DNA from: a virus
IMG/VR virus record: IMGVR_UViG_3300023281_002120
Location: 1-22,791 of that record
DNA length: 22,791 nt
Direction: 5' to 3' (one strand)
Shown here: piece after piece, positions 3,310 to 16,727 of the stretch
Layout: each line of letters starts with the position of its first letter
Numbering within the stretch: position 1 is the stretch's first letter
Made by a program: the position numbers and the translations under genes
The notes under the pieces: generated by a model
The model's input: the letters and a program-made list of their open reading frames with translations, nothing else
Databases searched by the model: none
Told to the model about the DNA's origin: nothing

Positions 3310-3314
3310 TCTTA

Positions 3315-3369
3315 TAGAAGTTTGGTTGAGGAATTAACCCCAACCTATAATGAACAGGAGATTAGAATG
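3315..3369 (+). repeat. 55-bp duplicated leader, copy 1, with operator-like inverted repeat
   Basis: An exact 55-bp sequence found again at 3694-3748. It contains an imperfect inverted repeat (arms GGTTGAGG and CCCCAACC around AATTAA, 3324-3345), then TATAAT (3346-3351), a Shine-Dalgarno AGGAG, and the ATG at its very end (3367-3369). The inverted repeat could be a repressor operator or an RNA hairpin controlling translation. If TATAAT is used as a -10, the inverted repeat would occupy its spacer, with TTGGTT as a weak -35. Confidence 0.8.
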
Positions 3370-3657
3370 AAATCACAGCAGAGGAGAAAAACGATGTCAG
3401 TCAATGAAGTACATAGTGGCGGTCACACCTTGATCACGGTGGACTATGAAACAGCCAAGCCCTTGGCCGAACAACGCGGCTTAGATCCTCATAAACTCCA
3501 CCTGGCGCTGAATTGGTACGTGCGCGACGGGATCAAGGACCCGGGGCCAGCAGTCAGCGGCAGCGGGTGGAGCGTCAAGCGCGGCAAAATTTGGTGGAAT
3601 GACCGAGAGGACCCGGATCGATTTGTTTTGGCGGACCTGTACGAGCAAGCACATTAG
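3367..3657 (+). CDS. Small protein of unknown function (96 aa)
   Basis: First gene of the rightward operon. The chosen start is the ATG that ends the 55-bp leader (AGGAG about 8 bp upstream), because the second copy of the leader ends in the start codon of the next gene in the same way. A second in-frame ATG at 3394 also has a good ribosome site (GAGGAG) and may be the real start, giving 87 residues beginning MSVNEVHSGG. The protein is soluble-looking and Trp/Asp-rich toward the C-terminus (GWSVKRGKIWWNDREDPDRF). No signal peptide, membrane segment or recognised domain is visible. I cannot assign a function. Confidence 0.65.
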   Translation: MKSQQRRKTMSVNEVHSGGHTLITVDYETAKPLAEQRGLDPHKLHLALNWYVRDGIKDPGPAVSGSGWSVKRGKIWWNDREDPDRFVLADLYEQAH

Positions 3658-3663
3658 AGAGAA

Positions 3664-3690
3664 GCTGGCCGCGCATCGAACGCGGCCAGC
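3664..3690 (+). other. Intergenic 10-bp perfect hairpin
   Basis: GCTGGCCGCG (3664-3673) pairs perfectly with CGCGGCCAGC (3681-3690) around a 7-base loop, starting 7 bp after the first gene's stop. No T-run follows, so it is not a normal intrinsic terminator. It may be an mRNA 3'-end stabiliser or processing site separating the first gene from the second, which has its own copy of the 55-bp leader. Confidence 0.55.
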
Positions 3691-3693
3691 CAC

Positions 3694-3748
3694 TAGAAGT
3701 TTGGTTGAGGAATTAACCCCAACCTATAATGAACAGGAGATTAGAATG
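3694..3748 (+). repeat. 55-bp duplicated leader, copy 2
   Basis: Identical over 55 bp to 3315-3369, offset 379 bp, including the inverted repeat, TATAAT, AGGAG and the start codon (ATG 3746-3748). Two non-homologous genes therefore share the same 5' control segment, implying joint regulation or insertion of a gene with its leader by recombination. Confidence 0.85.
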
Positions 3749-4174
3749 TTGTATAATTTGACAGCTCACAACCAGGCAGTGTTGAGTAAGGTAGACCTGA
3801 GCGATCTCGGAATTAATGAAGTCGAGGTAAAGCCCAGATTGCAGCCGGCGGACAATCCGAAGAATTATCAGGAATTAAAGGAGATTGTGAAATCGGCGGT
3901 AAGCGGGATACGACCGGGGAGCATGGTACTAATTGGTGGACTGGGGCAGTTTCAGGGTTTAATAATGCAATTGCCATTTCGGTTTTATTTCGCGGATTTC
4001 AATTTCGCAGAGAAGCGGGTGGAAGGAGTGATCCCGCACCAGCCGTTTACACGGCAAGAACTGTTCGATATTGAAAATCACCCCGCATCTTGCCCAGTAT
4101 GTGGAGGGCAAGGGGGGGCCATCGGCTCTGGACTGGAAAGTGACGACCCTTGTCATTCGGGGCCGTATAAATAA
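3746..4174 (+). CDS. Unknown protein (142 aa) with C-terminal Cys motif
   Basis: Second gene of the rightward operon; the ATG is the last codon of the 55-bp repeat with AGGAG 8 bp upstream. The sequence MVLIGGLGQFQGLIMQLPFR at about residues 59-78 resembles a strand-Gly loop-helix unit, followed by a beta-rich stretch (FYFADFNFAEKRVEGVIPHQ). The C-terminus has CPVCGG, half of a zinc-finger-like motif, with only one other cysteine after it. There is no signal peptide or clear membrane helix. I do not recognise the family. Confidence 0.65.
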   Translation: MLYNLTAHNQAVLSKVDLSDLGINEVEVKPRLQPADNPKNYQELKEIVKSAVSGIRPGSMVLIGGLGQFQGLIMQLPFRFYFADFNFAEKRVEGVIPHQPFTRQELFDIENHPASCPVCGGQGGAIGSGLESDDPCHSGPYK

Positions 4175-4211
4175 TTTGGTTCAGTAATTCAATCAATCAA
4201 GGAGAAAAAAG

Positions 4212-4448
4212 ATGAACCCAGAACAAAAACTATTAGAAAAATTATTAGAAAAATTACCGCCTCCTCCACTGGATTGCTATGAGGCTTCCGACTTCCTGGG
4301 CATCCCAGTGGAGGATGCCGCTCGCTTGCTCCGTGAAAACTGGGAGTTTGTGGGCTATAACGATTGTGGGGAGTATGAGTATGCGCCGCCCATACCTCCT
4401 CAGTCCAGGAGGGTTGAGGCTTATGGCCCAGAGTGGCCGCCAGAGTAG
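4212..4448 (+). CDS. Small acidic protein of unknown function (78 aa)
   Basis: Preceded by a good Shine-Dalgarno (AAGGAG, about 8 bp from ATG). The leader at 4172-4198 keeps traces of the 55-bp repeat (ATTTGGTT...AATTC) but is not a true copy. The N-terminus is a short amphipathic repeat (LLEKLLEKL), then a region that may be a small helix-turn-helix (DCYEASDFLGIPVEDAARLL) typical of excisionase-like or AlpA-like folds, then a Pro-rich acidic tail. The helix-turn-helix reading is tentative. The gene has the same strand and spacing as the neighbouring small genes, consistent with one operon. Confidence 0.6.
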   Translation: MNPEQKLLEKLLEKLPPPPLDCYEASDFLGIPVEDAARLLRENWEFVGYNDCGEYEYAPPIPPQSRRVEAYGPEWPPE

Positions 4449-4466
4449 AGGTGGTCAAAGACACCT

Positions 4467-4505
4467 CGTCGGGTGAAAAATCTTATTATGAGTTTTTACC
4501 CGGCG
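4467..4505. other. Imperfect hairpin downstream of the 78-aa gene
   Basis: CGTCGGGTGAAAAA (4467-4480) pairs with TTTTTACCCGGCG (4493-4505), with one bulge and one G-T pair, around a 12-base loop. The A/T tracts are in the stem, so termination is uncertain. The gap 4449-4593 holds no other recognisable feature. Confidence 0.4.
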
Positions 4506-4593
4506 AATTAACGATTATGCCTCCCCTCGTTCAATCTAAAACCTAACCCTCAGACAGACCTGGGCACGTCGGTAAACTGCCTGAAAATTTATT

Positions 4594-4809
4594 ATGACCA
4601 GTAGAGAAGCATTAAAAGTAATCAGAGATTTGTACAACCTAAATACTCAACGAGTACCGGCCAACGTCGCCGCCCAGCGACGCAGAGAGTTAAGAGACGC
4701 TTCAGAGAAATTAACAAGAAAAGACTTTGGAAGGCTTTCACTTGACCAAAGGGAATGGGTTATAGGTGAAACTCTCCCTTATGACATTCCCAACACGCCA
4801 TTGAGCTAA
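4594..4809 (+). CDS. Small basic protein of unknown function (71 aa)
   Basis: Reads MTSREALKVIRDLYNLNTQR and continues as a mostly helical, charged protein ending DIPNTPLS. Composition and helix periodicity look protein-like, but no convincing Shine-Dalgarno precedes the ATG, so it may depend on transcription and translation from upstream or be a weakly expressed gene. In another frame just past its stop, codons 4810-4866 read ...SHRDALNLIAWLRKV, which also looks coding and could be a frameshifted continuation or a gene remnant. No domain is recognised. Confidence 0.5.
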   Translation: MTSREALKVIRDLYNLNTQRVPANVAAQRRRELRDASEKLTRKDFGRLSLDQREWVIGETLPYDIPNTPLS

Positions 4810-4896: not shown

Positions 4897-4906
4897 CAGT
4901 CCCCAG

Positions 4907-4933: not shown

Positions 4934-4941
4934 GTTATATC

Positions 4942-5952
4942 TTAACTTCTGGGTTTAGCCAATTCCCAATATTTCGCCGACCCACAATCATCCGTCTGGC
5001 ATTTGATCTTTCCACTTTCAATCTGTGTCTCTCCATCGCGGGTATACAAAATTCCATTCTGCTCATAACCTAGCAGATGTCCCCGGTGACAAAACACCGG
5101 TGCCTGTTGATCGTTTAGCGGTTTCCACCATTTGTTATTCCAATCGAATACTGGTTGGCCCTTCATCAACATCTTCCATATTCGATGTTGCTGATATGAA
5201 TAAGAAATAACAGGCCCTGTTTTCTCTACTCGTTCTCGATTTATATTTGCCAATTCGGGCGATTTGTCTAACAACTTTATCACTGTTGCCAAGGGTTTGA
5301 TAAAGCCTATCTTGTCCCCTACGGCCTTCACCAATTCAGCATCTTCCTGATAATCAACTTCTAGCCGATAATGAGATCTAAAATAGACCTGCTTGGGTGG
5401 TACGTGGTAAAGAATGTCAAACATACGCCGATTCTGGTGGAAATACATATCGGTGTGTTCGCGTTGTTCGTTACTGATAGATCGCCTGGCAATTTTGTTC
5501 CAACCGGCCCGGCTAAAGGGGAATTCTCTGGCTCCATAGACAGGCCAAATGTCGGGCGGAAGGTGCCAGCAAAAAGCCTCTTTCTCTGGATGTTTTAGTA
5601 ACACTTCAACTGCGCGATTGACCAATTCTATACCAATAAAAGGCATGTCAGCCAATGCCCTCAGGACTAGTTTGCAGTTGGGTGCAAACGCTCGCATCGC
5701 ATTATCAACCCTACCCACAACATCACGACTATCCCCCCGAAAACATGGTATCTTCATCTCTGCCGCTATGTCAGCCAACTGGTCATCAGACCTAAGATGC
5801 GTTGTAGCCATTAAGACTCGGCCACCTTTTATCCGCTCCAATCGTTTTATGATCCAGTAGATTAATGGTTTTTTCCTGACAGTTAAAAAACATTTATCCT
5901 TTAACCGTTCGCTATCAGATCGAACGGTTAAAACAATGGCTAAATCCGCCAT
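4942..5952 (-). CDS. SpsF/NeuA-like cytidylyltransferase (CMP-nonulosonate synthetase) with C-terminal zinc-ribbon-like extension
   Basis: Last gene of the sugar cassette. Family members transfer CMP from CTP to a nonulosonic acid. The N-terminal 230 residues show the nucleotidyltransferase pattern: IVLTVRSDSERLKDK (R11, S14, R16-L17, K20) as the CTP-binding loop, then VLRALADMPFI (about 96-106) with the metal-binding Asp, and a late HYRLEVD...DAELV segment (194-207) as in SpsF proteins. Usual family length is about 230-250, but this is 336. The extra 100 residues contain C288, H292, C318 and C323, arranged like a metal-binding ribbon. The ATG has GGGG about 8 bp upstream and follows the small membrane protein by 18 bp. 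Which nonulosonic acid it activates cannot be read from sequence. Confidence 0.8.
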   Translation of the reverse strand: MADLAIVLTVRSDSERLKDKCFLTVRKKPLIYWIIKRLERIKGGRVLMATTHLRSDDQLADIAAEMKIPCFRGDSRDVVGRVDNAMRAFAPNCKLVLRALADMPFIGIELVNRAVEVLLKHPEKEAFCWHLPPDIWPVYGAREFPFSRAGWNKIARRSISNEQREHTDMYFHQNRRMFDILYHVPPKQVYFRSHYRLEVDYQEDAELVKAVGDKIGFIKPLATVIKLLDKSPELANINRERVEKTGPVISYSYQQHRIWKMLMKGQPVFDWNNKWWKPLNDQQAPVFCHRGHLLGYEQNGILYTRDGETQIESGKIKCQTDDCGSAKYWELAKPRS

Positions 5953-5970
5953 ATTACATTCCCCAAGATG

Positions 5971-6207
5971 TTATAGATTTATGGTCAACGTTCCCATTAT
6001 TATCAGTCCCAGAGTAAATCCAATTAGTCCCCACGCTGGTCCCTGCTCTTTAATCCGTTCCCAGAGAGTTTTTGGGGATTTGGCGAACCAAAAAACCTCG
6101 CCTTTGTCAACGTCAGGCAGACCGATGATGATGGGCTTCGATTCTGACCGTGCAGTAAAATACCATACTGTAGACAACCAAACGATAGCAAAAAATAACA
6201 TTTCCAT
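5971..6207 (-). CDS. Small two-helix membrane protein of unknown function (78 aa)
   Basis: Begins 3 bp after the SDR gene's stop with a clear Shine-Dalgarno (GGAG). Two predicted membrane helices, about residues 3-19 (LFFAIVWLSTVWYF) and 58-74 (AWGLIGFTLGLIIMGTLTI), flank a polar loop of about 38 residues. The second helix is Gly-rich. There is no recognised family. Lying inside the cassette, it may anchor or organise the sugar enzymes at the membrane or be a partner of an export or transfer step; this is inference from position only. Confidence 0.65.
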   Translation of the reverse strand: MEMLFFAIVWLSTVWYFTARSESKPIIIGLPDVDKGEVFWFAKSPKTLWERIKEQGPAWGLIGFTLGLIIMGTLTINL

Positions 6208-6210
6208 AAT

Positions 6211-6879
6211 TCACTCCGGCCAAACACTAAATTTATGTAGACTGCTGATTTCGATTGTTTCACCGCTTAATGATGGCTGTTCATACAGATTGAGAACAAA
6301 CCGGGCGGCATCCTCAAAACTAACCCAGGCCAAAGGAGTTTTTGCATTTATGGCCTGCTGTTCGTCTTCCGAAAACTGGATGCCGGCCATTTGGTCCGTC
6401 ATCTGGCCGAGTCTTAATGTCATAGCTCTGCCATACGGAGCCAATTCCACCGCCATTCCCCGGCTCAACGCCTCCAGACCGATTTTGGCTATAGCATATA
6501 AAGATCGGCCTGTTCTGGGTTGAGTAGCTTGAATAGATGAACAGTAAACGACCAACGCGCCAGAATTTAGTTTCTTTTGGCGGAGCAAGGCGCTAGAAAG
6601 CACGAAGGCAGACTCTAGATTGTTTCCAATAGTTTCACACCAGTCTGTTTTCGTACTCTCTGAAATCAAGACATTTTTAGCCGTACCGTGAGCCATCAAA
6701 ATCACATCGTACTGTGGCAATGAGTTTGCATAAACATCCGTCGCTTCCCAATCTGTCAGATCTAACCCTGTGCTTTTGCCAACGGTAGTTATCGACCAAC
6801 CATTTTCAGCAAAAACGCTATAAGCCGCCATGCCCAGATTTCCTGTATCTCCTCCCGTTATTAGAATTCTCCTTTCCAC
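6211..6879 (-). CDS. Short-chain dehydrogenase/reductase (PtmA-like), nonulosonate cassette
   Basis: A Rossmann-fold NAD(P)-dependent oxidoreductase of 222 residues. Visible motifs are the nucleotide-binding TGGDTGNLG (8-16), AHG at 63-65 in place of the usual NAG, catalytic serines at 114-115 (CSSIQ), and the Y128-x3-K132 pair (YAIAK). The start is GTG, chosen because it overlaps the preceding stop by one base (TAGTG) and has GGAGGT upstream. SDRs of this type (PtmA) accompany NeuB and CMP-transferase genes in legionaminic-type flagellin glycosylation loci. The exact substrate here is unknown. Confidence 0.8.
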   Translation of the reverse strand: MERRILITGGDTGNLGMAAYSVFAENGWSITTVGKSTGLDLTDWEATDVYANSLPQYDVILMAHGTAKNVLISESTKTDWCETIGNNLESAFVLSSALLRQKKLNSGALVVYCSSIQATQPRTGRSLYAIAKIGLEALSRGMAVELAPYGRAMTLRLGQMTDQMAGIQFSEDEQQAINAKTPLAWVSFEDAARFVLNLYEQPSLSGETIEISSLHKFSVWPE

Positions 6880-8120
6880 TAGCTGACCTCCTGATCTGTG
6901 TATTTTGGCTGTATTTTCTCAGCGGCCAACATTGCATCCCCTAAAGCTTTGTCGTTGTTGATGTCTTTAGTAATGATAAAAACTGGTCTATCTTGATTTT
7001 GCACTAGAGGATCTATTCCCTTGTGTTTCATAAAAAAGATTTGTTCAGCTATTTCCTCTGCCCCCCACAATTCCCAGCCGCCAATTTCGCCGGGATCATA
7101 TCTCGGCGCAAAGCAACAAGCTACGCCGTCACTTGTAACGTACAGTTTTTCCTTATCCACCCCGTCCCCCAAGGCAACATCTAACATGATGCCAGTCGCG
7201 TCTCGTCCTGTGGACAAAGGGGCGGTGACCATATGATCGAACCCGCCACTTAGCCGAGTCGCACACTCCAGCAGACACCAACCATAACGCCGATCTTTTT
7301 TTACATCTATTTTGAATGGCCCCCACGTTACTCCCAATTTGCGAGCGGCGACTCTGGCAAGCCATACAATTTCATCATTAGGGTAAAATGGATTTATATG
7401 ACCAGCTTCTATACCTAGTTGATCTACCCAGAACATTCTGAGCGCACCATTTACACAAATGATCTGCCCGCCCTCTACAAAAAAATCAAATGCAGCCTCA
7501 GATGTATCGAATCCGTATTTTTGTCTCCACTCTGGAATGATGTCTACACCGATGAGCAACTCTTCGATCAAGGCATCTTCGGTTCGTTGGTTTAACGCAG
7601 CATCCATATCAGCTTTATTATAAACGATTTCTAACCCTCGGCTGCCGGCCTGCCTTGGCGATTTTATCACCAGCGGCATGTTATCCGATGACAATCTGTT
7701 TATCACTTGATTATCAGATCCCTCATTCTCCCGATAACTATAAATGAAATAATACGGATGAGGCAATTCTGTCACCTTTCTCATTTCAATTTTGTTTTTG
7801 GTATTCTCTGCCACCTGCCGGCCTACTCCAGATAGTCCTAGATGTTCTGATAATGCGCTAACCGTAGGGCCGGCATCAGTACCAATGGTCAGGACAGCAG
7901 CTATCTCTGCCTGACCAACTTGGTCATATTTGGCCGCCATGTCCAGATGAGCCTGGACGTCATAGACTGATAGTTTTTCAAAATGGCTGGCCTGGTAGCG
8001 ACAGTGGCAATTTTCGTTGCCATCAGTCAAGATCAACTTGTAGCCACGCCGATCTATTTCCATCGCCATCGGTTCAGCCATTATTGAACCACCAACAAGC
8101 CAGACATGCTTTTCGCTCAT
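6879..8120 (-). CDS. ATP-grasp family ligase (carbamoyl-phosphate-synthase-like)
   Basis: A 413-residue ATP-grasp protein. The N-terminal preATP-grasp part begins VWLVGGSIMAEPMAM and contains ILTDGNENC. The central ATP-binding lysine region is MPLVIKSPRQAGSRGL, and the metal/ATP site ends in WCLLECATRLSGGFDH, matching the conserved E-x(2,3)-R-x-GG. Family members couple ATP hydrolysis to forming an amide or similar bond between a carboxylate and an amine. The start at 8120 was chosen over an upstream in-frame ATG (8144) because AGGAG lies 8 bp before it. Similar ligases occur in flagellin-sugar islands beside NeuB and class III aminotransferases. It could attach an acyl or amino-acid group to an amino sugar, but that is inference. 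Confidence 0.8.
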   Translation of the reverse strand: MSEKHVWLVGGSIMAEPMAMEIDRRGYKLILTDGNENCHCRYQASHFEKLSVYDVQAHLDMAAKYDQVGQAEIAAVLTIGTDAGPTVSALSEHLGLSGVGRQVAENTKNKIEMRKVTELPHPYYFIYSYRENEGSDNQVINRLSSDNMPLVIKSPRQAGSRGLEIVYNKADMDAALNQRTEDALIEELLIGVDIIPEWRQKYGFDTSEAAFDFFVEGGQIICVNGALRMFWVDQLGIEAGHINPFYPNDEIVWLARVAARKLGVTWGPFKIDVKKDRRYGWCLLECATRLSGGFDHMVTAPLSTGRDATGIMLDVALGDGVDKEKLYVTSDGVACCFAPRYDPGEIGGWELWGAEEIAEQIFFMKHKGIDPLVQNQDRPVFIITKDINNDKALGDAMLAAEKIQPKYTDQEVS

Positions 8121-8152
8121 TTTTATCACTCCTATCTCATACAACTGTAAAA

Positions 8153-9001
8153 TTATAATGTCTGCATTAGATCGAGTATTCGTTCACTCGCTCGCCCATC
8201 AATTGGCCGTCCTGACGGTGTGAACGGTTGGCCCAAAAAGTCTCTAATTTTCATTTCAGTGTCAGGTAATCCGACTTGACGGTGCGCCCTAATGTAACCC
8301 GCCCCGGCCATTTTTTTCGCAAAGCTCAAATGTTGGGCGGTCAGAGAATATACATATGTTGGAATTCCCATAGCAGCCAATTCCCAAACTGTCATGCCCA
8401 TTGCCACGCATGCACGCCTGCACTGACTCGCTGCCACCAAAAAACCATTGTCATGACTATCCCCAGCTTGCCAATCCTGATCTGAGATAGTAAAACTCAT
8501 TTTTTGGAAGTCCGGGAACCGCTTGGTTAGTCCCATTTTATCAGCGGCCCCCCCAAACACAAACCAATCCATAATCGGGCGTCTGATGGCTTTAGCCTCG
8601 AAAACGCTTTTCCTTAAAATGATATAGTCAACGCCCGAATATTCCTCTCTTCCCAGACCCTGGACGATTCGCAAATCGGCCCGGTCTCCCACCTGATGGC
8701 CGACCCCGTTTAGCACGCAGGTTTTAATATTAGATTGCTGACAGTGATCGTATATCCAATCCGGGGCCTCGTCGGGTAAGTCGATCACCAACCAGTCACA
8801 CTGTTGAGATAGCGGACCTCTCCAAATTGTTTGATCACCAAATGGAACTCGGTGACAAAGCAAATTGTCAGGAGGAACACGGTCGCCAATAATGGTGACT
8901 TGAGAGCCTTGGTTCCTGATGTGTTTCGCCAGGGCAACAGATCGATACCAGTGACCGAATCCAGTCTCGTTATTGGCGAAACAAAGAAAGTTAACTTTCA
9001 T
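8153..9001 (-). CDS. PseG/SpsG-like UDP-sugar hydrolase (GT-B fold)
   Basis: A 282-residue protein resembling PseG, which removes UDP from the UDP-diacetamido-trideoxy sugar just before NeuB-type condensation. The N-terminus has the family motif G-x-G-H-x-x-R (TGFGHWYRSVALA), with the histidine at residue 17, the position of the catalytic His in characterised PseG. FVFGGAADKMG marks the start of the second domain, and the nucleotide-binding region reads CVAMGMTVWELAAMGIPTYV followed by QHLSFA (family: NQ). The start overlaps the methyltransferase gene by 11 bp with GGGAG upstream. An SpsG-type glycosyltransferase is an alternative reading, because the folds are shared. Confidence 0.75.
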   Translation of the reverse strand: MKVNFLCFANNETGFGHWYRSVALAKHIRNQGSQVTIIGDRVPPDNLLCHRVPFGDQTIWRGPLSQQCDWLVIDLPDEAPDWIYDHCQQSNIKTCVLNGVGHQVGDRADLRIVQGLGREEYSGVDYIILRKSVFEAKAIRRPIMDWFVFGGAADKMGLTKRFPDFQKMSFTISDQDWQAGDSHDNGFLVAASQCRRACVAMGMTVWELAAMGIPTYVYSLTAQHLSFAKKMAGAGYIRAHRQVGLPDTEMKIRDFLGQPFTPSGRPIDGRASERILDLMQTL

Positions 9002-9848
9002 CGTCAGTTCTCCCTATAAATATCAACTCTCGCCCAATGCTCCACCTCTCAAACATCCATTTATAAACCCAAAAGATATTCGGGCCCAGTAGCTTCTCCC
9101 AGTGAAGCTTTAGCAGATGGCATTTGCCACCCATCGCATCATTGTCAAAATAATTGAAACCAAACAAGGGGAATAATTCCATTGGGAATGTTGCGCCTCG
9201 AAATATTACATTAAGCCCAGCCGATTCCAACAACTGCATCAAGGTCGGCGGCGTAAAATAATTAAGATGAACCGAGCTGACAAACCCGGTATAACCCAGC
9301 CTTGCCTGCAATGGATTTATATCGTTAGGAACCACCACCAGAATCTTCCCACCGGGATTAAGAAAATTCAACACATTCTCCAGAAATTGACCGGGATAAG
9401 CGACATGTTCAAGAACTAAATGCAAAATAACGACGTCAAACTGATGTGGAAAATGGTAAGTCAACTCCTCCTCGTTCTGGTACAAAATATTTCCCGTCAT
9501 TATTTTTTTTGCAGCTTGCCTTGCTACTTTTGATGGCTCTATACCGCGAACCGCTGCACCCTTCCCATAGAAATGAGATAGCAACATTCCACAACCACAA
9601 CCATAATCGAGAATGGTCTGACCCTTCTCGATTTCCAAAATATCAGAAAGATAGTTGAAATACGATCTCCATAGACCCGTCGAATATTCGGCTATTTCTT
9701 TTTTTAGCCAGTCATCTGGGGAATGTTCCGCGTAAAACCGGTCATCGTTATAATACGATTCTATATATGTCTGAGCAGGGTAGGGGTCAATCCTATAGTG
9801 ATGCAAAATTCGATCATAGACAATTTTTAGCATCTCGGATTTCATCAT
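8991..9848 (-). CDS. SAM-dependent class I methyltransferase
   Basis: A 285-residue protein with a Methyltransf_11/23-type core. Motif I is ILDYGCGCGMLLSHF at about residues 79-93, the acidic loop after strand 2 is VRGIEPS, motif IV-like VVILHLVLEHV follows, then NPGGKILVVVPND. The N-terminal 70 residues are an aromatic-rich helical cap seen in sugar methyltransferases. The start is ambiguous: ATGs at 9854, 9848 and 9845 are possible. 9848 is chosen because AAGGGG then lies about 8 bp upstream. It probably O- or N-methylates a sugar intermediate of the cassette, but the acceptor cannot be told from sequence. Confidence 0.8.
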   Translation of the reverse strand: MMKSEMLKIVYDRILHHYRIDPYPAQTYIESYYNDDRFYAEHSPDDWLKKEIAEYSTGLWRSYFNYLSDILEIEKGQTILDYGCGCGMLLSHFYGKGAAVRGIEPSKVARQAAKKIMTGNILYQNEEELTYHFPHQFDVVILHLVLEHVAYPGQFLENVLNFLNPGGKILVVVPNDINPLQARLGYTGFVSSVHLNYFTPPTLMQLLESAGLNVIFRGATFPMELFPLFGFNYFDNDAMGGKCHLLKLHWEKLLGPNIFWVYKWMFERWSIGRELIFIGRTDDES

Positions 9849-9873
9849 AATCATTGCCCCTTAGCGCAAAACC

Positions 9874-10512
9874 TTAAAACTTCTCTGCCGCCGAAATGTT
9901 CTCAGCTTGATAAACCCAAATGTAAGCCAGGCGCACTCCCGGACCTGCTGTCACCATATGAACGCCTAACGGAATATCCAAAATGTCTCGGTCTCTGATT
10001 ATCTGAGTGTCTTGCATCCATTTCCCATCCAGGAAACCCTGTCGGGTTTGGATACCCCACCCGCTGGGCGGGTCGGTTATATAAGCAAATTTCTCCCAGA
10101 ATCGCATAGGTTTAAGAGATTTTAGAGCTTCAAGTTCAAAATCATGAGGCTCGCTTGACCAAGTTCCTCGTCCCTCGTGGATGGTCATTCCTAAGCGAAA
10201 ATCCAGACCGGAATCTTTGCCAATGTATTCATAGACATTCCTGGCTGTGCCGCGCTCAGGGTCACCGACAAATTTCATGGCAGGCGGCCCTGTCGGTAGA
10301 CTGAATTTTTCCGGCAAATCGCAAAATATTCTTAGCTTGAATTCCGAGCCATCATCATATGTCCCTTTGAGCGAGGCAGGCGTTATAACTAACTCGTCTT
10401 GTATATCACCAGAAAACAAGCCATCAATATCGGGTAACGAGATGACTAAACCGCTTGATAGTTTGGGGCCATTTGCTCTTGTCCATTTTAAGTCCATCGG
10501 ATTTATAGTCAT
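9874..10512 (-). CDS. IolB/KduI-like cupin (putative sugar isomerase)
   Basis: A 212-residue protein with the bicupin-type pattern of 5-deoxy-glucuronate isomerase (IolB/KduI superfamily). GRGTWSSEPHDFELEAL (about residues 113-129) matches the IolB signature region R-x-G-T-W-S-S-x-P-x-H, with the metal-binding His and Glu. DIPLGVHMVTAGPGVRLAYI near 178-197 matches the second conserved block (VPxGxHP.....G). Family IolB is about 270 residues, so this is a shortened relative. It overlaps the upstream oxidoreductase by 4 bp (ATGA). A cupin of this group is not a standard nonulosonate enzyme; it may isomerise or epimerise a keto-sugar intermediate. Confidence 0.65.
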   Translation of the reverse strand: MTINPMDLKWTRANGPKLSSGLVISLPDIDGLFSGDIQDELVITPASLKGTYDDGSEFKLRIFCDLPEKFSLPTGPPAMKFVGDPERGTARNVYEYIGKDSGLDFRLGMTIHEGRGTWSSEPHDFELEALKSLKPMRFWEKFAYITDPPSGWGIQTRQGFLDGKWMQDTQIIRDRDILDIPLGVHMVTAGPGVRLAYIWVYQAENISAAEKF

Positions 10513-11312
10513 TCTTCATGCTCCTTGTTCAGTCTGTAACACTGTTCTATTAGTTCCTGCGTTTTAATCGCCTCAGCCAGATCGGGATAATGGTCTCCGG
10601 CTAAAAAAGCTTGCCACATAGAGATGAACATCATTGGATCAGGATCAACGATGATACTTTCTAAAAAAATATTTTCTTTCGGTCTAGGGTGAAATATTCT
10701 GGCTATTCGGTTTATATCACTATCTGTTACCGTCTCTGTAATATCACCCAAACAGGTTTTTATGATCCATGTCAAACGTTGTCCTGCATCTTCTATAGTT
10801 TCTTTGGCTGATACTATTTTTAGCTCATGATCGGTTATCATTCGAGCTATATCCAAATCATGGGATGCGTGATCGAGCAAAAGTCCCCATTCTGGCATGT
10901 CTGCCCGCTGCTGTTCGAAGTACATATCAAATGAATGTACCCCTGCCACCCGATGCGCCAGTTCATGGTGATAACGGTAATTATAAGCCACCATAACTGG
11001 CGCATCGGGTGGCAGACTTTTGGCATGTTCTAATTGGCCTATTCCGCATAGCGGTTTTTCGCATAGGATTGCAGGGACTCCAACTGATAGCCAATCCTCA
11101 ATATGTGCTAGATGTAAATCCGGCGGCGTACATATCACAACAAGATCAAAACTTGACGGATAAAAGTAATGGTTTTTGTATCCATCAACTGTCACGCTTT
11201 CTATACAATCTGGATCGGCAATGTAGACGTCTAGCCCCATTGATTTTGCCAGAGCCGCATGGCGTTTGCCCGCCCGTCCGTAACCCAAAATCAGCGCCTT
11301 TTTATCTGTCAC
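10509..11312 (-). CDS. Gfo/Idh/MocA-family oxidoreductase
   Basis: The N-terminal Rossmann domain reads KKALILGYGRAGKRHAALAK, followed by VVICTPPDLHLAHI and the family signature CEKPL (about residue 92 counted from the GTG). The C-terminal sugar-binding domain follows, with DHASHDLDIAR as the catalytic Asp/His region. NAD(P)-dependent members oxidise or reduce sugar hydroxyl or keto groups. A GTG at 11312 is chosen as start: it has AAGGG about 8-10 bp upstream, gives a short 11-bp overlap with the aminotransferase, and begins where relatives begin. The longer ATG form from 11345 would add 11 residues and overlap by 44 bp. It fits a sugar-tailoring role in the cassette. Confidence 0.8.
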   Translation of the reverse strand: MTDKKALILGYGRAGKRHAALAKSMGLDVYIADPDCIESVTVDGYKNHYFYPSSFDLVVICTPPDLHLAHIEDWLSVGVPAILCEKPLCGIGQLEHAKSLPPDAPVMVAYNYRYHHELAHRVAGVHSFDMYFEQQRADMPEWGLLLDHASHDLDIARMITDHELKIVSAKETIEDAGQRLTWIIKTCLGDITETVTDSDINRIARIFHPRPKENIFLESIIVDPDPMMFISMWQAFLAGDHYPDLAEAIKTQELIEQCYRLNKEHEE

Positions 11313-12543
11313 GAAATAATACCCTTGGCAGTCGCTGTGCCACATGCTTGGTTAACGTAGCCCGTTCCTGAGCCGCACCATATTTAGCCCTGACCCGCCG
11401 TGATGCCTGAACAGTTTGATCTACCATTGCAACGGTGTGGCTCAAAGTTGGGAAATTAGGTCTATTCATTAAAAAACCTTCCTCCCTCATACCGTGAATA
11501 AAAAAAGCTTGCTCTTCAATAGAAACGAAAGTAACCAGACTTCGAGGCGGATCTCCGACCACGCGCCAGCCTGCACTACCAAGGCCGGCTATCAATTGCT
11601 TGCCTATCTCCCAGATATGCGCAACAGTCTCTTGATTCCAATTCGACAAAACAGCGACCGCAGCCGCCATATTAAGCGAGTTGCCCCAATGAGTAGATGA
11701 GCAAAATACCGGTGACGTTTTGGAAAATTCATTCATCAGGTTACTGCCACCGACCAGAGCAGAAACTGGCAAACCGTTTCCCAACGCTTTCCCCATGCAA
11801 ATCAGATCAGGCGAGACATTCATAGATTCACATACACCCCCCAGGCCATAGCGCAAACCCGTAACCACCTCATCCATAATGAGCAAAACCCCATGATCGT
11901 CGCAATATTTTCGCACCTCGGAATAAAATCCAGCAGAACTTTCGAGTCCCTGCTCGATGACAATGGCCGCTGGTAGTTTGTTTGTTTTATTGCCGATAAC
12001 CAACCCTGCTTGGTGTAACGATTTTATGTCATTAAATTTGAACTCTTCAATATAGTCAACCAAGCCAGGCGGTATACCATCGGCTGGCTTGGTTCGGGCG
12101 ATGGTCCAATCTGCCCATCCGTGATAACCGTCTTCAAGAACCAAAATTCCAGGACGGTCCGTCACCGATCTGGCTAACCTGACAGCCATTGATACCGCTT
12201 CCGTTCCTGATAATGCAAAACGCACCCCTAGACTTTGGTTCCGCCAATAAGGGATATTTCGACTCAACATATCGGCCAACAAGTTGGCGGCTTTACATTC
12301 AAGCTTGTGAGGTAACGAAAAACTGCCACCGCCGCCTACCATCTCATCTATCAATTGAAATTTGAAATACCCATAGCCAAACAGGTTAGTCCCTAATCCT
12401 GACACCCAATCAATGTAATGATGTCCGTCAGTGAGTCCAACTCTTGCCCCGTTGCCCACAGTTACGGCCAAGTCAGGCTCAAAACCCCAAGCCTGGGGAT
12501 GCTTCGAAAAAGTGCCGGTCATGCTTAGGTTATTCCCCATCAT
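11302..12543 (-). CDS. Class III PLP-dependent aminotransferase (glutamate-1-semialdehyde-aminomutase-like)
   Basis: A 413-residue protein with all main elements of the GSA-aminomutase group: LSGTEAVSMAVRLAR (phosphate-binding, 111-125), LEDGYHGW (136-143, ring-stacking aromatic), IMDEVVTGLR (222-231, Asp bonding the pyridine nitrogen) and MGKALGNGLPVSAL with the Schiff-base lysine K252. It starts with ATGATG, overlapping the previous small gene by 4 bp. A chromosomal hemL role in haem synthesis is unlikely in this setting. Class III aminotransferases recur in nonulosonate/flagellin-glycan islands, where they aminate a keto-sugar or side chain. It replaces the DegT-type aminotransferase (PseC/LegC) usual for these pathways. 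Confidence 0.85.
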   Translation of the reverse strand: MMGNNLSMTGTFSKHPQAWGFEPDLAVTVGNGARVGLTDGHHYIDWVSGLGTNLFGYGYFKFQLIDEMVGGGGSFSLPHKLECKAANLLADMLSRNIPYWRNQSLGVRFALSGTEAVSMAVRLARSVTDRPGILVLEDGYHGWADWTIARTKPADGIPPGLVDYIEEFKFNDIKSLHQAGLVIGNKTNKLPAAIVIEQGLESSAGFYSEVRKYCDDHGVLLIMDEVVTGLRYGLGGVCESMNVSPDLICMGKALGNGLPVSALVGGSNLMNEFSKTSPVFCSSTHWGNSLNMAAAVAVLSNWNQETVAHIWEIGKQLIAGLGSAGWRVVGDPPRSLVTFVSIEEQAFFIHGMREEGFLMNRPNFPTLSHTVAMVDQTVQASRRVRAKYGAAQERATLTKHVAQRLPRVLFRDR

Positions 12544-12619
12544 CTCGCCTTGAAACTTCTTGATTGTGTTCGTTGGCTAACGCCGCCAATTCTCTTAAAA
12601 TGTCTTTGGGATCGATCAT
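12530..12619 (-). CDS. Overlapping mini-ORF (29 aa), possible frameshifted end of the neighbouring small gene
   Basis: In the +1 frame relative to the 81-aa gene, the ATG at 12619 opens MIDPKDILRELAALANEHNQ and ends with TAA inside the aminotransferase start region. Its helix-like, Ala/Leu/Glu pattern looks more protein-like than the Arg/Ser-rich tail of the 81-aa frame over the same DNA. A TGA two codons upstream closes the frame, so it is either a tiny separate gene with a weak ribosome site or the true C-terminus of the 81-aa gene after a one-base slip. Confidence 0.35.
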   Translation of the reverse strand: MIDPKDILRELAALANEHNQEVSRRDDGE

Positions 12620-12785
12620 ATCTCATATCGATTCTTATGTGGGCGAAGCCTCTAAAATTCTCAACGATCCATACGCCTTCAACATTTTTTATATGTCTAT
12701 CGGACAAACCCGACCAAATATAAAATGACTGCGGCATAATATCATCTTTTTCTTCATAATGAAACTCAGTTTTTCTTGTTACCAT
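12540..12785 (-). CDS. Small unknown protein between neuB-like and aminotransferase genes (81 aa)
   Basis: Has a good Shine-Dalgarno (GGAG, 6-7 bp before ATG), sits 24 bp after the NeuB-like gene and overlaps the aminotransferase start by 4 bp, so it is likely expressed. Residues 1-56 (HYEEKDDIMPQSFYIWSGLS and onward to RIDMRYD) look like a compact alpha/beta domain. The last 25 residues are Arg/Ser/Gln-rich and low in hydrophobics, unlike the rest, while another frame there looks coding, which suggests a frameshift. No family is recognised. Confidence 0.55.
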   Translation of the reverse strand: MVTRKTEFHYEEKDDIMPQSFYIWSGLSDRHIKNVEGVWIVENFRGFAHIRIDMRYDRSQRHFKRIGGVSQRTQSRSFKAR

Positions 12786-12809
12786 TATCGCTCCATATCC
12801 CCTGCTCAG

Positions 12810-13694
12810 TTACCATGCTTTCGTTGCGTTTTTCAATCTTTGTCTTATATATGTCATTGGTCTCAACCCATCTGTAGGGCTAGTCCTAAAGTGCCTCTCT
12901 GGATTTTGCGTAGGATCAAATGTCCCTTTCCCATCAGCCATCAGTCCGTCTCTTACCTGATCGATAACATCTTTCATCTTGCTTGGCGTCCAACAGTGGC
13001 CTAAATAATACTCAAAACCTAGCTTGTCATCCAAGTCCAAATGAAATTCTATCACTCCGGCCCTATATTGATGGACCGCCCGATGAATAACCCCAGCGTT
13101 CGCTGAGTGATCTGAATAACCCACGCTACTATTCAAGTATGCTCTAATTTCATCTATAAAATCCAAGTGACAATCTTTTGGCTCAACCGGATATTGACTA
13201 ATGCAATGCAACAGGGTCAACCGATCCTCTGCATCCCAATGTTTTATGGTTTGGCTAAATATAGCTGCTTGAATTTCCTCCAATGTAGCCATGCCTGTAG
13301 ACAAAATAACGGGCTTATCAGGGATGCTCAAAATCTTATCCAGCAAGGCCGGCCATGTTAGTTCGTAGGATGCCACTTTGTAAAAATCTACATAGGGTTG
13401 TAACTGATCGACCGCATCTAAATAAAACGGACTACAGCCAAAATGTATTTTGTGTTCGCGGCAAGCCTCGGCCAGTTTTGGTAGCCAGTCTAAGGGCAAT
13501 TCCCACTGGCGGCGCTTGTTTATACTCTCGAATTCTGGGTGATCTAGTAGTGATTGAGTGAATAGTTTGTCAATTCTAAAAAGTTGAAACTTCACGCCAT
13601 CGCACCCAATATCTTTGGCGGCTTTAATTATTTTAATGGCTCGCTCTATATCACCATTATGATTAGAACAAACTTCAGCAATAAATCTAGTCAT
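12810..13694 (-). CDS. neuB: NeuB-family nonulosonate synthase, catalytic barrel only
   Basis: Condenses phosphoenolpyruvate with a six-carbon sugar to make a nine-carbon nonulosonic acid. The TIM-barrel signatures are clear: FIAEVCSNHNGDIERAI at the N-terminus (family IAEIGxNHxG), GCDGVKFQLF, FYKVASYEL, ILSTGMATLEEI, LLHCISQYP, SVGYSDHS, and VIEFHLDLDD where most members have E-K-H. Length is 294 against about 335-350 for NeuB/PseI/LegI. The protein ends just after the barrel (RTSPTDGLRPMTYIRQRLKN), so the C-terminal SAF/antifreeze-like domain that caps the partner's active site in NeuB dimers is missing. It overlaps the dehydratase gene by 4 bp. The exact product (legionaminic, pseudaminic or another) cannot be told. 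Confidence 0.85.
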   Translation of the reverse strand: MTRFIAEVCSNHNGDIERAIKIIKAAKDIGCDGVKFQLFRIDKLFTQSLLDHPEFESINKRRQWELPLDWLPKLAEACREHKIHFGCSPFYLDAVDQLQPYVDFYKVASYELTWPALLDKILSIPDKPVILSTGMATLEEIQAAIFSQTIKHWDAEDRLTLLHCISQYPVEPKDCHLDFIDEIRAYLNSSVGYSDHSANAGVIHRAVHQYRAGVIEFHLDLDDKLGFEYYLGHCWTPSKMKDVIDQVRDGLMADGKGTFDPTQNPERHFRTSPTDGLRPMTYIRQRLKNATKAW

Positions 13695-14632
13695 GCCGTC
13701 TCCCGCTCAGACTTAATACCCAACCGATCTAAAACCTCTTGACCTGTCATCCTGAAAGCGGTCTGGCTGTTATACATAGCTACAGACTCAGATGTCCTTC
13801 CTGGACTAACTATTGCCAATTTATCGCTGACCATTTTTGTTACTTCGCCCTCCTGTATCAGTATTTCATGCTGTTTCTCCCCTGGCTGTAGGGGCGCATT
13901 ACAAATATTAACCGCATCGGTAATTGCGGTAGCTACAGCATGAATATCAAACCGCGGTAAAGAATGAGGGACAAATACACCATTTTGGCTTTCCATTGTC
14001 AGCAGAGCATCATCTATTAAATCCATGGCCTCGGCGATAGACAAAAAAAACCGGGTAGGATTTGGATTCCTGACCTGAATCGGATTGCCCTTTTTTAATG
14101 CTTCCCCCCATTTGTGGATGAATGAGCCTTGCGATTCTACTACGTTCCCGTAGCGAATCGAGCTAAACCCCAGGCTGATAAAGGCCGCTTCACCGCATCG
14201 CTTGGAACATCCATAAGTATTAATCGGAGATACGGACTTGTCAGAGTTTATGTATAACGCTCGCCTGGGAATATGAGGTTTCCCATAACTGTCTTCAGTA
14301 TGATTTGTTGCCGCCCATGCCCTGGCTACCACCTGAGAACCAACAGCGTTGACCCGGTAATATTCGGATGGGAATTGCTCACCTAGAGAAACCACTTTTA
14401 GCGCTGCGGCGTGGATCAAGATGTCTTTACCCAAACACGCTTGATATACCGCCTCGTAATCGCAAACGTCAGCCAAAACAAAAACAGACGGCGGCAAATC
14501 AAATTGTTCTTGTAGTTGCTGCTGTCTGTGCGGATTTCGAGATAGTACGGTGAGATCATACCGATCTTTGTATCGGGCTACAAGCGCCTGCCCTAATGAT
14601 CCCGTTCCCCCGGTTATCAAAATCTTATTCAT
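13691..14632 (-). CDS. PseB-like UDP-HexNAc 4,6-dehydratase (NAD-dependent SDR)
   Basis: First gene of the cassette. An extended SDR of 313 residues: ITGGTGSLGQAL (6-17) binds NAD; HAAALKVV (74-81) is typical of the FlaA1/PseB group; INSDKSVSP with D131-K132 and the Y140-x3-K144 pair (TYGCSKRCGE) are the catalytic residues; SSIRYGNVVESQGSFIHKW is the signature RYGNV block; NPTRFFLSIAEAMDLI follows as in PseB. Family enzymes turn UDP-GlcNAc into a 4-keto-6-deoxy sugar, the first step toward pseudaminic or legionaminic acid. GAGGGG precedes the ATG. A TATAAT (14663-14668) lies upstream, so the cassette may have its own promoter in addition to read-through from the tail genes. Confidence 0.85.
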   Translation of the reverse strand: MNKILITGGTGSLGQALVARYKDRYDLTVLSRNPHRQQQLQEQFDLPPSVFVLADVCDYEAVYQACLGKDILIHAAALKVVSLGEQFPSEYYRVNAVGSQVVARAWAATNHTEDSYGKPHIPRRALYINSDKSVSPINTYGCSKRCGEAAFISLGFSSIRYGNVVESQGSFIHKWGEALKKGNPIQVRNPNPTRFFLSIAEAMDLIDDALLTMESQNGVFVPHSLPRFDIHAVATAITDAVNICNAPLQPGEKQHEILIQEGEVTKMVSDKLAIVSPGRTSESVAMYNSQTAFRMTGQEVLDRLGIKSERETA

Positions 14633-14662
14633 AGCGGTCCCCTCGCCTGTTAAACAAACTTT

Positions 14663-14704: not shown

Positions 14705-14941
14705 TTATAATAACGGATGTGTTTTTTGTTCGCTTGGCTCGGCGATCTGTGAATTCAAACGGTTGTCTAACTCTGTCTCTGAATCGGACGGTTTTAATTC
14801 TGCCTGAAGACGGGCTACGGTTTCTTGAAGTTTGGCTATTAGTTCAGCCTGCAAGCGATTTTGCAAATATAGATCACCAACGATTTGCTGAAAGCGCTCC
14901 ATTGCAATCGTGTTGTTTTGAGTTTGAAATCGGTTATCCAT
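14705..14941 (-). CDS. Small coiled-coil protein at end of tail module (78 aa)
   Basis: Begins within TAATG, overlapping the previous gene's stop by one base, so translation is coupled. Residues 14-50 (MERFQQIVGDLYLQNRLQAE and LIAKLQETVARLQAEL) have strong heptad spacing, predicting a coiled coil, followed by a polar Ser/Glu-rich tail. Small coiled-coil proteins at the end of tail modules often trimerise fibres or belong to the lysis/tail-tip region, but no family is recognised. There is no membrane segment, so a holin is unlikely. Confidence 0.6.
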   Translation of the reverse strand: MDNRFQTQNNTIAMERFQQIVGDLYLQNRLQAELIAKLQETVARLQAELKPSDSETELDNRLNSQIAEPSEQKTHPLL

Positions 14942-15336
14942 TACTGACTACCTAAATCGTCTCGCAGAGCATTGACTGTGGACTGATAATCGCCTGCTGT
15001 CACGGCTGCATTATTCCTTAAGTTCTGAATTTGTTGGAATAATGTATCTCCGGCTGCTACCTCAGCCGCCGTAATCCCTAAACTGGCGATGTCGGCGTCA
15101 ATAATCGGATCGGCTCCAGAGCCGTCAAAACTTTGCGTGAAATAGACGCTGTCCAAGTCCTTTGTATCCAAATAGAGTTGTGCTATAGTCGTACTTATAG
15201 CTTGTACTTTTTTCGCAAATTCAATTTTATTTGCCATCTTTAATGCCTCGCCTTTCGTTCCGAAATAATCTGATTTTATACCATTACTGAAAACTATCCA
15301 GCGACCATCAGCCGCTTGATAAACTGCAGTAGCCAT
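14941..15336 (-). CDS. Hypothetical tail-region protein (131 aa)
   Basis: Lies 12 bp after the fibre-tip-like gene, in the same leftward operon. The N-terminus (MATAVYQAADGRWIVFSNGI then KSDYFGTKGEALKMANKIEF) looks like a small beta-hairpin unit resembling the sequence-display edge of phage tail/assembly proteins. The middle is helical, with a DSVYFTQSFDGSGADPI loop, and the C-terminus is Ala/Asn-rich helical. No conserved domain is recognised. The order (hub, tip, this gene) suggests a tail-tip or fibre component or its chaperone. Confidence 0.6.
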   Translation of the reverse strand: MATAVYQAADGRWIVFSNGIKSDYFGTKGEALKMANKIEFAKKVQAISTTIAQLYLDTKDLDSVYFTQSFDGSGADPIIDADIASLGITAAEVAAGDTLFQQIQNLRNNAAVTAGDYQSTVNALRDDLGSQ

Positions 15337-15348
15337 TAGAACTCCTTA

Positions 15349-15612
15349 CTACGGCTGAGTGGCAAGGATTTGCACCGCACCGGTATTGAATACTACTGCT
15401 AATTGCGTTTTCCCGGCCCCGTTGTCAACGGCGTAGAGACGAGCCGTGTTAGCCGCCCCCGCGCCAGGTGCGGTCATTTCGTCAAATTCAATTGCACCCG
15501 CCATACCCACATTCCCACTATCATCAACCGACAACGTCTCAACCGCCGACAGCCGATCAAGCAAGCGCTCTAAATTATCTATCTTCGCCACCAATTCCCT
15601 GATTATCGTCAT
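15349..15612 (-). CDS. Small fibre-tip-like tail protein (87 aa)
   Basis: Starts inside TGATG with the hub gene, so translation is coupled. The N-terminal 30 residues form a coiled-coil segment (IRELVAKIDNLERLLDRLSA). The remainder contains a block often seen in trimeric tail-fibre and adhesin tips: EMTAPGAGAANTARLYAVDN then GAGKTQLAVVFNTGAVQIL. The short coiled coil plus this beta-rich module suggests a trimeric tail-tip or receptor-contact protein; this rests on motif resemblance only. Confidence 0.65.
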   Translation of the reverse strand: MTIIRELVAKIDNLERLLDRLSAVETLSVDDSGNVGMAGAIEFDEMTAPGAGAANTARLYAVDNGAGKTQLAVVFNTGAVQILATQP

Positions 15613-16727
15613 CAGTCCTCAATCCTTATATCAGCCGTGATAGTTTCTTTGCCACCAGAGACATCAACAGAGATAGTATTGATCCGGGCCGTAAACACTT
15701 CTCCCTCAATCTCGACAGTTACTTTGTCTCCCCAATTCCAATCAACCCCATAGAGAGAGCCCGGCTTGTTTATGATCGTCCCGGAGATGGTACGAAGGGG
15801 CCGGCCAGATGTCAACTTTGATTCTGCCTCAGCTATCAACCCATTATCGTTATTGGTCTGCCTTGAATCCGCCAACGCCTCAATCCTGCCAAATGGACTA
15901 AGTCCGATCCGTGTGACATCACTGGCAGTCTGAATGTTTCTATCAGATGCCAATCCTTGCCCAGCCGCATAAACAAACGTTACCTCATTTGTGAATTCAT
16001 CACTCTGTACAACGTTGATCAGATTGCCATATTCAGGCGAAAACACAATAGCCCTGGTCCCTGTAGTAATATCGCTGCCCCGGACGTTGATGAAGATCTT
16101 GAACTCCTGAGTTTTGGCCGACACATTATAATCAAGGTCAAAATAGACCGGCGTCCCCTGAACGTTGGCCTGTTGGGCTACTTCCTGAATCGTAGTCAAC
16201 AGGTTTCGCCGTGAGGCCGACTTGCGGACGGTTGGGCCCAGTCCCGATGAACCAAAAACTGTGATTTTATCTGAGATGTCGCGGTCGCTGTCAGTGGCAC
16301 TACTGCCTAAATTTTCCTTAACAAATTCTACTATCACATTATCAGCCAGGTCATTTTTAGACGATTGACTTGACCCGGCGTCATAAGCAATGACCCGGCG
16401 ACGCAAAACATCAAGGGCCGATTGACACTGAATTTCTAGCATTTGTTGGTCAAAATTGAAAGTCCTTTTTCTGAGTAGCCATTGGGTGCCGGTTTCCAGA
16501 TACTCAACCCCCCCAGCTATCCCGCGCCAAATCTCGATTCTGACATCGCGGGTGAAGATCGAGCGGTCAACGAGGGATGTGTCAAAGTTAAATGTGAGGG
16601 TGCCAGGAACGTTGACTGAGCGGGAATAGGCGAGGGTGTTAAAATTGCTTTTGATAGCCAGGGTTGAATCTTGAGCGTTTTTGATAACCAGGGTGTAGGT
16701 TGCGCCGACAATGGTATCACGTGCCAT
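15612..16727 (-). CDS. Tail hub/baseplate protein, siphovirus Gp37-like
   Basis: A 371-residue, beta-rich protein directly after the distal tail gene, overlapping it by 11 bp. It begins YTLVIKNAQDSTLAIKSNFN and has features of the ReqiPepy6 Gp37-like/T4 gp27-type hub group: an N-terminal beta-barrel domain (LTFNFDTSLVDRSIFTRDVR followed by IEIWRG), a middle region NLLTTIQEVAQQANVQGTPV, and a C-terminal domain ending GDKVTVEIEGEVFTARINTI and a DI-R-I tail. Such proteins form the ring that closes the tail tube. The position after the Dit-like protein supports this. No peptidase domain is visible. Confidence 0.7.
   Translation of the reverse strand: MARDTIVGATYTLVIKNAQDSTLAIKSNFNTLAYSRSVNVPGTLTFNFDTSLVDRSIFTRDVRIEIWRGIAGGVEYLETGTQWLLRKRTFNFDQQMLEIQCQSALDVLRRRVIAYDAGSSQSSKNDLADNVIVEFVKENLGSSATDSDRDISDKITVFGSSGLGPTVRKSASRRNLLTTIQEVAQQANVQGTPVYFDLDYNVSAKTQEFKIFINVRGSDITTGTRAIVFSPEYGNLINVVQSDEFTNEVTFVYAAGQGLASDRNIQTASDVTRIGLSPFGRIEALADSRQTNNDNGLIAEAESKLTSGRPLRTISGTIINKPGSLYGVDWNWGDKVTVEIEGEVFTARINTISVDVSGGKETITADIRIED

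Follow-up and report, generated by a model that had tools for sequence, protein, structure and literature searches.

The 22,791-bp linear virus contig IMGVR_UViG_3300023281_002120 of IMG/VR, the entire record of which is the window analysed here, carries a cassette of twelve tightly packed minus-strand open reading frames (ORFs; 4942-14632) of the CMP-nonulosonic-acid (NulO) type. The cassette is phage-borne, and it is conserved in phages that are related to this one by their portal proteins. From gene content and placement, we consider it somewhat probable that this cassette, together with a pair of glycosyltransferase-like genes found in relatives (gtA-gtB), serves the lineage to decorate its own virions with a sialic-acid-like sugar.

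The cassette within a phage genome

The cassette is bracketed by phage genes, with a tail module on one side and a portal gene on the other. The gene order along the minus strand is tape measure (19168-22791; PhageMin_Tail 1.4e-49), Dit-like tail protein (16717-19167), Sipho_Gp37-like minor tail protein (15612-16727) and three small ORFs, all belonging to the tail module (14705..22791; Pfam and PHROG matches), followed directly by the twelve cassette ORFs on the same strand. On the far side lies the gene for a Mu-type portal protein (1277..3028, minus strand; PF06074 2.7e-24). The presence of phage genes on both flanks indicates that the cassette lies inside a phage genome. Furthermore, an independent 82.5-kb contig (G434) repeats the arrangement of tail, cassette and portal, which settles in the affirmative whether tail genes plus cassette recur in other phage contigs, a check proposed in the preliminary description of this DNA. 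The flanks and the recurrence also support the view taken there that a CMP-NulO-type cassette belongs to the phage. That such an arrangement is unusual, as was stated there, was not supported: none of the large contigs of the lineage lacks the cassette, and other phage groups carry such sets beside terL and portal genes.

The cassette junctions range from a 44-bp overlap (aminotransferase/Gfo-Idh, with the first ATG assumed) to a 24-bp gap, and most lie between -11 and +19; the close packing described earlier thus stands, whereas the overlap range of 1-11 bp given with it missed the 44-bp case. No terminator was found between tail and cassette (14633-14704), in agreement with the preliminary description, and over 3000-20000 there were 15 candidates against 16.0 expected by chance. 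No tRNA was found in the window.

An assembly chimera, or a bacterial surface-glycan locus next to a degraded prophage, which had been named as the outcome that would overturn the phage assignment, is hardly credible. A tandem repeat of 310 bp and 98% identity at 733-1351 shows that the left end of the contig has some duplication or assembly problem, and the closest NeuB is bacterial. However, G434 shows the order of tail, cassette and portal independently, all large contigs of the lineage carry the cassette, codon usage matches (correlation of 0.917 between cassette and tail and 0.891 between tail and portal), and neither GC nor GC skew shows a step at either end of the cassette. In place of the features of a bacterial surface-glycan locus, we found portal and tail flanks, and no gene for polymer export or assembly was recognised. 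Both the chimera and the bacterial locus at a prophage edge were rejected at the level of the lineage, given the cassette in every large contig and its recurrence on G434.

Conservation across the portal lineage and a linked glycosyltransferase pair

The lineage was found by portal searches. Single-sequence IMG/VR scans with NeuB and with the aminotransferase gave no matches, and alignments were needed; INPHARED gave only two distant NeuB matches and no PseG match, so that isolates were of no help. Phage G002 (portal 35% identical) carries PseB, NeuB, aminotransferase, Gfo/Idh, PseG, methyltransferase, short-chain dehydrogenase/reductase (SDR), ATP-grasp and SpsF genes in nearly the same order as the window (nine gene families, two inversions among 36 pairs, P ~1.2e-4 for order alone), and its cassette leads into terminase and portal genes. 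An RNA-ligase-family gene (PF09414, 4.8e-17; L014 9591-10253) sits between its pseB and neuB. Cassette genes also lie upstream of the portal gene in L221 (portal 63%, SpsF 53%, SDR 45%, ATP-grasp 42%) and L223 (portal 51%); L221 has, in addition, two near-identical opposed portal copies (5033-6796 and 7682-9817) and a partial SpsF, a probable assembly artefact.

Six portal relatives of 37-117 kb (G434, G435, G437, G447, G449 and G460) all carry PseB, NeuB, aminotransferase, Gfo/Idh, methyltransferase, ATP-grasp and SpsF, with cassette identities, G002 included, of 22-50%, and NeuB co-occurs with an SpsF-like cytidylyltransferase in 7 of 7 larger lineage genomes. On a single strand of G434, Dit-like and Gp37-like tail genes are followed by replication-type genes, the cassette and the portal gene. 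The cassette of G437 and G460 is farther from the portal gene and on the opposite strand, indicating that the exact order of tail, cassette and portal is not universal. In the portal tree, a branch supported at SH-aLRT 96 separates 16 rows with the cassette from four rows without it; these four are larger contigs in which the searches run found none, the cassette-free side is small, some labels rest on one cassette gene (e.g., SpsF), and 30 short-contig rows are unlabelled. Tyrosine integrases were found in neither the window nor any of the 16 lineage records, which are fragments, in a search that did not cover serine integrases. Taken together, the gene set is a stable lineage trait of tailed, siphovirus-like phages.

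Contig G001 has the portal sequence of G002, with which it overlaps at that gene, and contains two glycosyltransferase-like genes between genes of head-tail connector type and tail-completion type. Such gtA-gtB pairs, adjacent or nearly so, are present in G434, G435, G437, G447, G449, G453, G460 and G001, with identities across the eight members of 33-70% for gtA and 18-57% for gtB, and a connector homologue was found beside gtA in all seven contigs searched (those named except G001). In G434, the pair lies between the genes of the major head protein (phrog_1005, 3.4e-89) and the major tail protein (phrog_9522, 1.2e-14), and one further ORF separates gtA from gtB. The gtB members match Glyphos_transf (8.2e-9), Epimerase_2 and, weakly, Capsule_synth, a family that includes CMP-Kdo transferases; we infer that gtB uses CMP-NulO. 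The missing part of the phage represented by the window presumably carries the same transferase pair.

Predicted enzymes of the cassette

Domain and motif matches confirmed the earlier listing of twelve packed leftward genes that include PseB-like, class III aminotransferase, PseG-like, NeuB-like and SpsF-like members. The first gene (13691..14632; this and all cassette genes are on the minus strand) encodes a PseB/SpsM-like UDP-GlcNAc 4,6-dehydratase (Polysacc_synt_2, Pfam 1.6e-43; PDB 4j2o, 2.1e-30) with an intact active site (S130, D131, K132, Y140 and K144 kept). Its S130(x9)Y140(x3)K144 matches the family triad T-(x)9-M/Y-(x)3-K (PMC7439481), with S in place of T, and orthologues sharing 30-41% identity with it occur in phage G002 as well as in six contigs of the lineage. 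The NeuB/PseI/SpsE-like nonulosonate synthase (12810..13694; PF03102 7.6e-51), for which the best PDB match is SpsE (2.5e-26), keeps E7, K35, K106, H196, E216 and H218, which are invariant across four phage NeuBs and correspond to the metal and phosphoenolpyruvate residues of NeuB structures. The C-terminal SAF domain is absent from this protein, as it is, judged by length, from the 290-residue 6ncs chain.

The candidate 4-aminotransferase (11302..12543) is a class-III (GSA-type) pyridoxal phosphate (PLP) enzyme (PF00202, Aminotran_3, 2.9e-37), whereas sugar aminotransferases of the PseC/SpsC type usually belong to the DegT family; its PLP Lys252 and Asp224 are kept and are invariant in nine phage sequences, and it is 38-41% identical to homologues in four lineage contigs. 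The candidate PseG/SpsG-like UDP-sugar hydrolase (8153..9001) matches TIGR03590 at 8.4e-10 over residues 1-41 only, which is weak alone. It has the motifs GxGH..R (G14-G16-H17-R20), GMTV.E and DGR..ER, and the assignment was accepted because these are shared with the sister protein of G002, which matches TIGR03590 over its length at 4.2e-22; identity to G433 is 32%. The SpsF-like CMP-sugar cytidylyltransferase (4942..5952; CTP_transf_3 2.2e-13; PDB 6oew, 9.8e-9) keeps the nucleotide-binding signature RxxSxRLxxK (R11/S14/R16/L17/K20) and has a C-terminal zinc-ribbon-like tail, the cysteines of which are common to G002. AlphaFold models of the PseG-like and ATP-grasp proteins were too poor for fold comparison (pLDDT of 38.5 and 46.7, respectively). 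Scores against the NCBIfam equivalogs were all below the cut-offs, with 139.5 bits versus 407.75 for PseB (TIGR03589), 152.7 versus 340.25 for PseI, 156.7 versus 399.65 for NnaB and 38.7 versus 153.55 for PseG; for this reason, we do not name the product as pseudaminic, legionaminic or neuraminic acid. At 1e-3, the PHROG library gave no family for the NeuB, SpsF, Gfo/Idh, cupin, PseG or ATP-grasp protein of the window.

The remaining genes would mainly serve tailoring. They encode a Gfo/Idh/MocA-type oxidoreductase (10509..11345; PF01408 1.2e-8; 32-44% identical to lineage contigs), a KduI/IolB-type cupin (9874..10512; PF04962 1.1e-6) with homologues in the G437, G447 and G460 cassettes and in a Terriglobia locus (41% over 113 aa), an S-adenosylmethionine-dependent methyltransferase (8991..9854; PF13489 1.3e-21; 37% to Terriglobia and 32-42% to lineage contigs) and an SDR (6211..6879; PF13561 2.9e-14), which is as similar to L223 as to L221 (45%). 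The ATP-grasp ligase, a candidate N-acylating enzyme (6879..8144), matches PRK07206 at 1.3e-8, which is weak alone, and the assignment is supported by its orthologues (37-38% in G433, G437 and G460), which bear ATP-grasp and LAL_C2 (L-amino-acid-ligase type) domains. An 81-aa ORF (12540..12785) has no Pfam match. A 78-aa predicted membrane protein (5971..6207), with hydrophobic N- and C-terminal segments recognised by eye, has a homologue at the equivalent place in L221 (2e-6); this putative two-helix protein could be a holin or a member of the cassette.

The cassette had been described as complete-looking; its five core steps have candidate enzymes, but nothing that could perform N-acetylation was recognised either in the window or among the 16 lineage records. 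The ATP-grasp ligase is regularly present in the lineage where the GNAT-type enzyme is absent; N-acylation by the ligase is therefore proposed as a guess.

Several other features of the contig were also observed. The portal protein has an N-terminal MerR-type helix-turn-helix (HTH; 1.8e-7), and a MerR/excisionase-type HTH is likewise N-terminal in the G434 portal (62133-64619); through this unusual fusion, DNA binding could be coupled to packaging or to expression of the portal. The copies of the 310-bp tandem repeat (733-1042 and 1042-1351, identical at 304/310 positions) represent either a real duplication or an assembly artefact, and they create a truncated gp30-like ORF (968-1273) whose end duplicates the portal C-terminus. 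Four small plus-strand ORFs of no clear family lie between cassette and portal (3322..4809), with a perfect 55-bp direct repeat in this region (3315-3369 and 3694-3748). The Dit-like protein bears a CBM_4_9 and a Rax2-type beta-propeller region, possibly a glycan-binding part of the tail, and the tape measure gene holds a short 33-bp-spaced repeat (21117-21208).

Proposed function and comparison with known systems

The reactions, the product and the acceptor given here are proposals, with the likely route drawn from homology to the Bacillus subtilis Sps pathway. UDP-GlcNAc would be dehydrated by the PseB/SpsM-like enzyme, the class-III aminotransferase would add an amino group, and the PseG/SpsG-like hydrolase would release UDP. 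NeuB would then condense the hexose with phosphoenolpyruvate, and the SpsF-like enzyme would yield the CMP-sugar, with Gfo/Idh, SDR, cupin, methyltransferase and ATP-grasp proteins tailoring the sugar and the ATP-grasp ligase possibly supplying an N-acyl group. The two GT-B-like glycosyltransferases of the relatives would then attach this sugar to a virion protein, alone or as part of a glycan, so that the phage particle would be decorated with a sialic-acid-like glycan.

Some observations weigh against this proposal. The similarity of gtA and gtB to characterised families is only distant, and no glycosyltransferase was found within the window, where the head-tail region homologous to the gtA-gtB site is missing. 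All lineage records are fragments, which weakens statements of absence, including that of a GNAT N-acetyltransferase (the PseH/SpsD step) in the window and in 16 of 16 lineage records. Finally, the scores of NeuB, PseB and PseG lie so far under the equivalog thresholds that the sugar cannot be specified exactly, and the product might conceivably not be a NulO. An end product other than a canonical nonulosonic acid, such as a related 2-keto acid or amino sugar, would agree with these scores, with the lack of GNAT in the lineage and with the extra ATP-grasp, cupin, Gfo/Idh and SDR genes, as well as a thiamine pyrophosphate enzyme in G002; we nevertheless regard it as improbable, as the catalytic and metal-site residues of NeuB are kept and the 7/7 larger genomes retain NeuB together with the SpsF-like enzyme.

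The preliminary description had offered two functions, decoration of the virion and recoding of the host surface, and the former has gained positional support from the glycosyltransferase pair of the relatives and further support from the lack of tyrosine integrases. Recoding of lipopolysaccharide, capsule or flagella with NulO during infection or lysogeny, which would block rival phages, has a precedent in the Acinetobacter baumannii capsule (PMC12053666), and it would fit the closest cellular loci, which are of surface-polysaccharide type or plasmid NulO loci, as well as a cyanophage contig with SpsF and NeuB among many sugar genes. It is, however, unlikely here: in addition to the integrase result, the cassette has no recognisable flippase or polymerase, and the conserved glycosyltransferases are set apart from it, among virion genes. 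DNA-modifying glycosyltransferases of phages were reportedly described by Pyle in 2024 (cited in PMC12619734), one of the 16 lineage records has a thymidylate-synthase-family gene, and G002 has an apparent DNA methyltransferase by sequence. The supply of an activated amino sugar or NulO-like acid for DNA hypermodification is, even so, very improbable, since the other 15 records have no thymidylate-synthase/hydroxymethylase-family gene and the glycosyltransferases are located in the late structural region. Virion decoration is thus favoured over surface conversion by the position of the pair in the structural region and by the fact that neither tyrosine integrases nor export genes were recognised, all of this in fragmentary records.

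NulO cassettes are not rare in phages, and unrelated groups carry NeuB sets beside terminase genes. An alignment search with the aminotransferase gave 32 loci (a nine-sequence alignment was too diverse for searching), most of which share Gfo/Idh, an SpsF-aminotransferase fusion, PseB and NeuB; phrog_1216 portals were seen in three sampled loci, and in two of these a phrog_38 terminase was read beside the cassette. A group of IMG/VR phages (L019-L040) resembles the window in carrying the same core enzymes beside packaging genes, with GNAT, methyltransferase, Gfo/Idh, SpsF::aminotransferase fusion, PseB, DegT and PseI next to terL and portal. This group differs in its terminase and portal families, in the fusion (proteins of ~670 aa) and in the presence of GNAT, and no PseG was recognised within the flanks read; one of its PseI proteins exceeds the NCBIfam cut-off (395.6 versus 340.25 bits). 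A NeuB search matched 199 stretches. The loci from both searches are classed as viral by IMG/VR, with structural genes checked in the named loci only. Among the NeuB matches, L135 encodes NeuB (39% over the window protein) together with PseB, SpsF, GNAT, DegT and a Maf-type transferase (14054-15439, 9.5e-45), and in L182/G420, NeuB is just upstream of terL and a Maf-type PF01973 gene (L182 16012-17025) comes right after a capsid-like gene. The Maf type is a flagellin NulO transferase family, and its genes near NeuB in these other groups support virion decoration. A more specific version of that proposal, which is possible but doubtful, is that the cassette makes a dedicated NulO with an amino-acid-type N-acyl group from the ATP-grasp ligase, that gtA-gtB attach it to proteins of the head-tail joint or the capsid, and that a sialylation-like coat is a core virion trait, achieved via Maf-type transferases in several unrelated phages too.

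If true, virion decoration would add sialic-acid-like coats to the chemistry of phage particles and would affect how stable they are, how they adsorb and how they are recognised. The gtA-gtB pair represents a concrete testable enzyme, and the lineage is a source of new CMP-sugar enzymes. Single sugar genes in phages, and the modification of host glycans by phages, were already known. The open-access literature searched held no report of a phage NulO cassette; neuB is listed as a virome gene (PMC3877843), and a review of marine phages has pseI among its abbreviations (PMC6359870). As far as that literature shows, a lineage-wide, near-complete NulO pathway with linked glycosyltransferases is new.

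Among cellular systems, the closest relatives of the cassette are bacterial. The NeuB tree, which excludes the lineage contigs such as G434 and G453 (41% and 49% identical to the window NeuB, respectively), groups the window with a Terriglobia locus and a Solidesulfovibrio plasmid (98/86) and then with L135 (100/98). The Terriglobia metagenome-assembled genome (JAIQFA010000081.1; L074) has an operon-like block of PseB, NeuB (49%), SpsF, aminotransferase and PseG that also includes methyltransferase (37%), cupin (41%), ATP-grasp and SDR genes; unlike the window, it is bacterial, lies beside a chain-length-determinant-like gene and further sugar genes, and has an additional DegT aminotransferase and aldo/keto reductase. 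In 347 genomes of its phylum, the sole close NeuB was that of this already known locus, leaving no clear donor, and bacterial counterparts of the aminotransferase are, among the matches listed, under-sampled. Plasmid pDCAR1 of Solidesulfovibrio carbinolicus (NZ_CP026539.1) shares NeuB (46%), PseB, ATP-grasp with LAL_C2, methyltransferase, FabG-type SDR and cytidylyltransferases with the window, and differs in being located on a plasmid and in having PseC, PseF, transketolases and radical SAM genes.

The CMP-legionaminic acid pathway of B. subtilis (spsM, spsC-G) comprises six enzymes (PMC7439481). The window resembles it in the dehydratase, candidate aminotransferase, SpsG/PseG hydrolase, SpsE/NeuB and SpsF cytidylyltransferase and in the predicted UDP-linked precursors, so that five of the six steps have candidates and the SpsD/PseH acetyltransferase step has none; it differs in its class-III aminotransferase, in its ATP-grasp, cupin, Gfo/Idh, methyltransferase and SDR genes and in being phage-borne. 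The A. baumannii prophage genes epaA-epaB encode two enzymes that modify host-made pseudaminic acid, with the capsule as the target by NMR (PMC12053666). They are likewise phage-carried nonulosonic-acid enzymes, but only two modifying ones and in a temperate phage, and the integrating prophage of that type was not recognised here, with tyrosine integrases in 0 of the 16 fragmentary lineage records and serine integrases not covered. Mycobacteriophage glycosyltransferases were reportedly proposed by Freeman in 2023 to modify virion proteins; compared with those virion-glycosylating phages, the lineage described here would encode the de novo NulO supply pathway as well.

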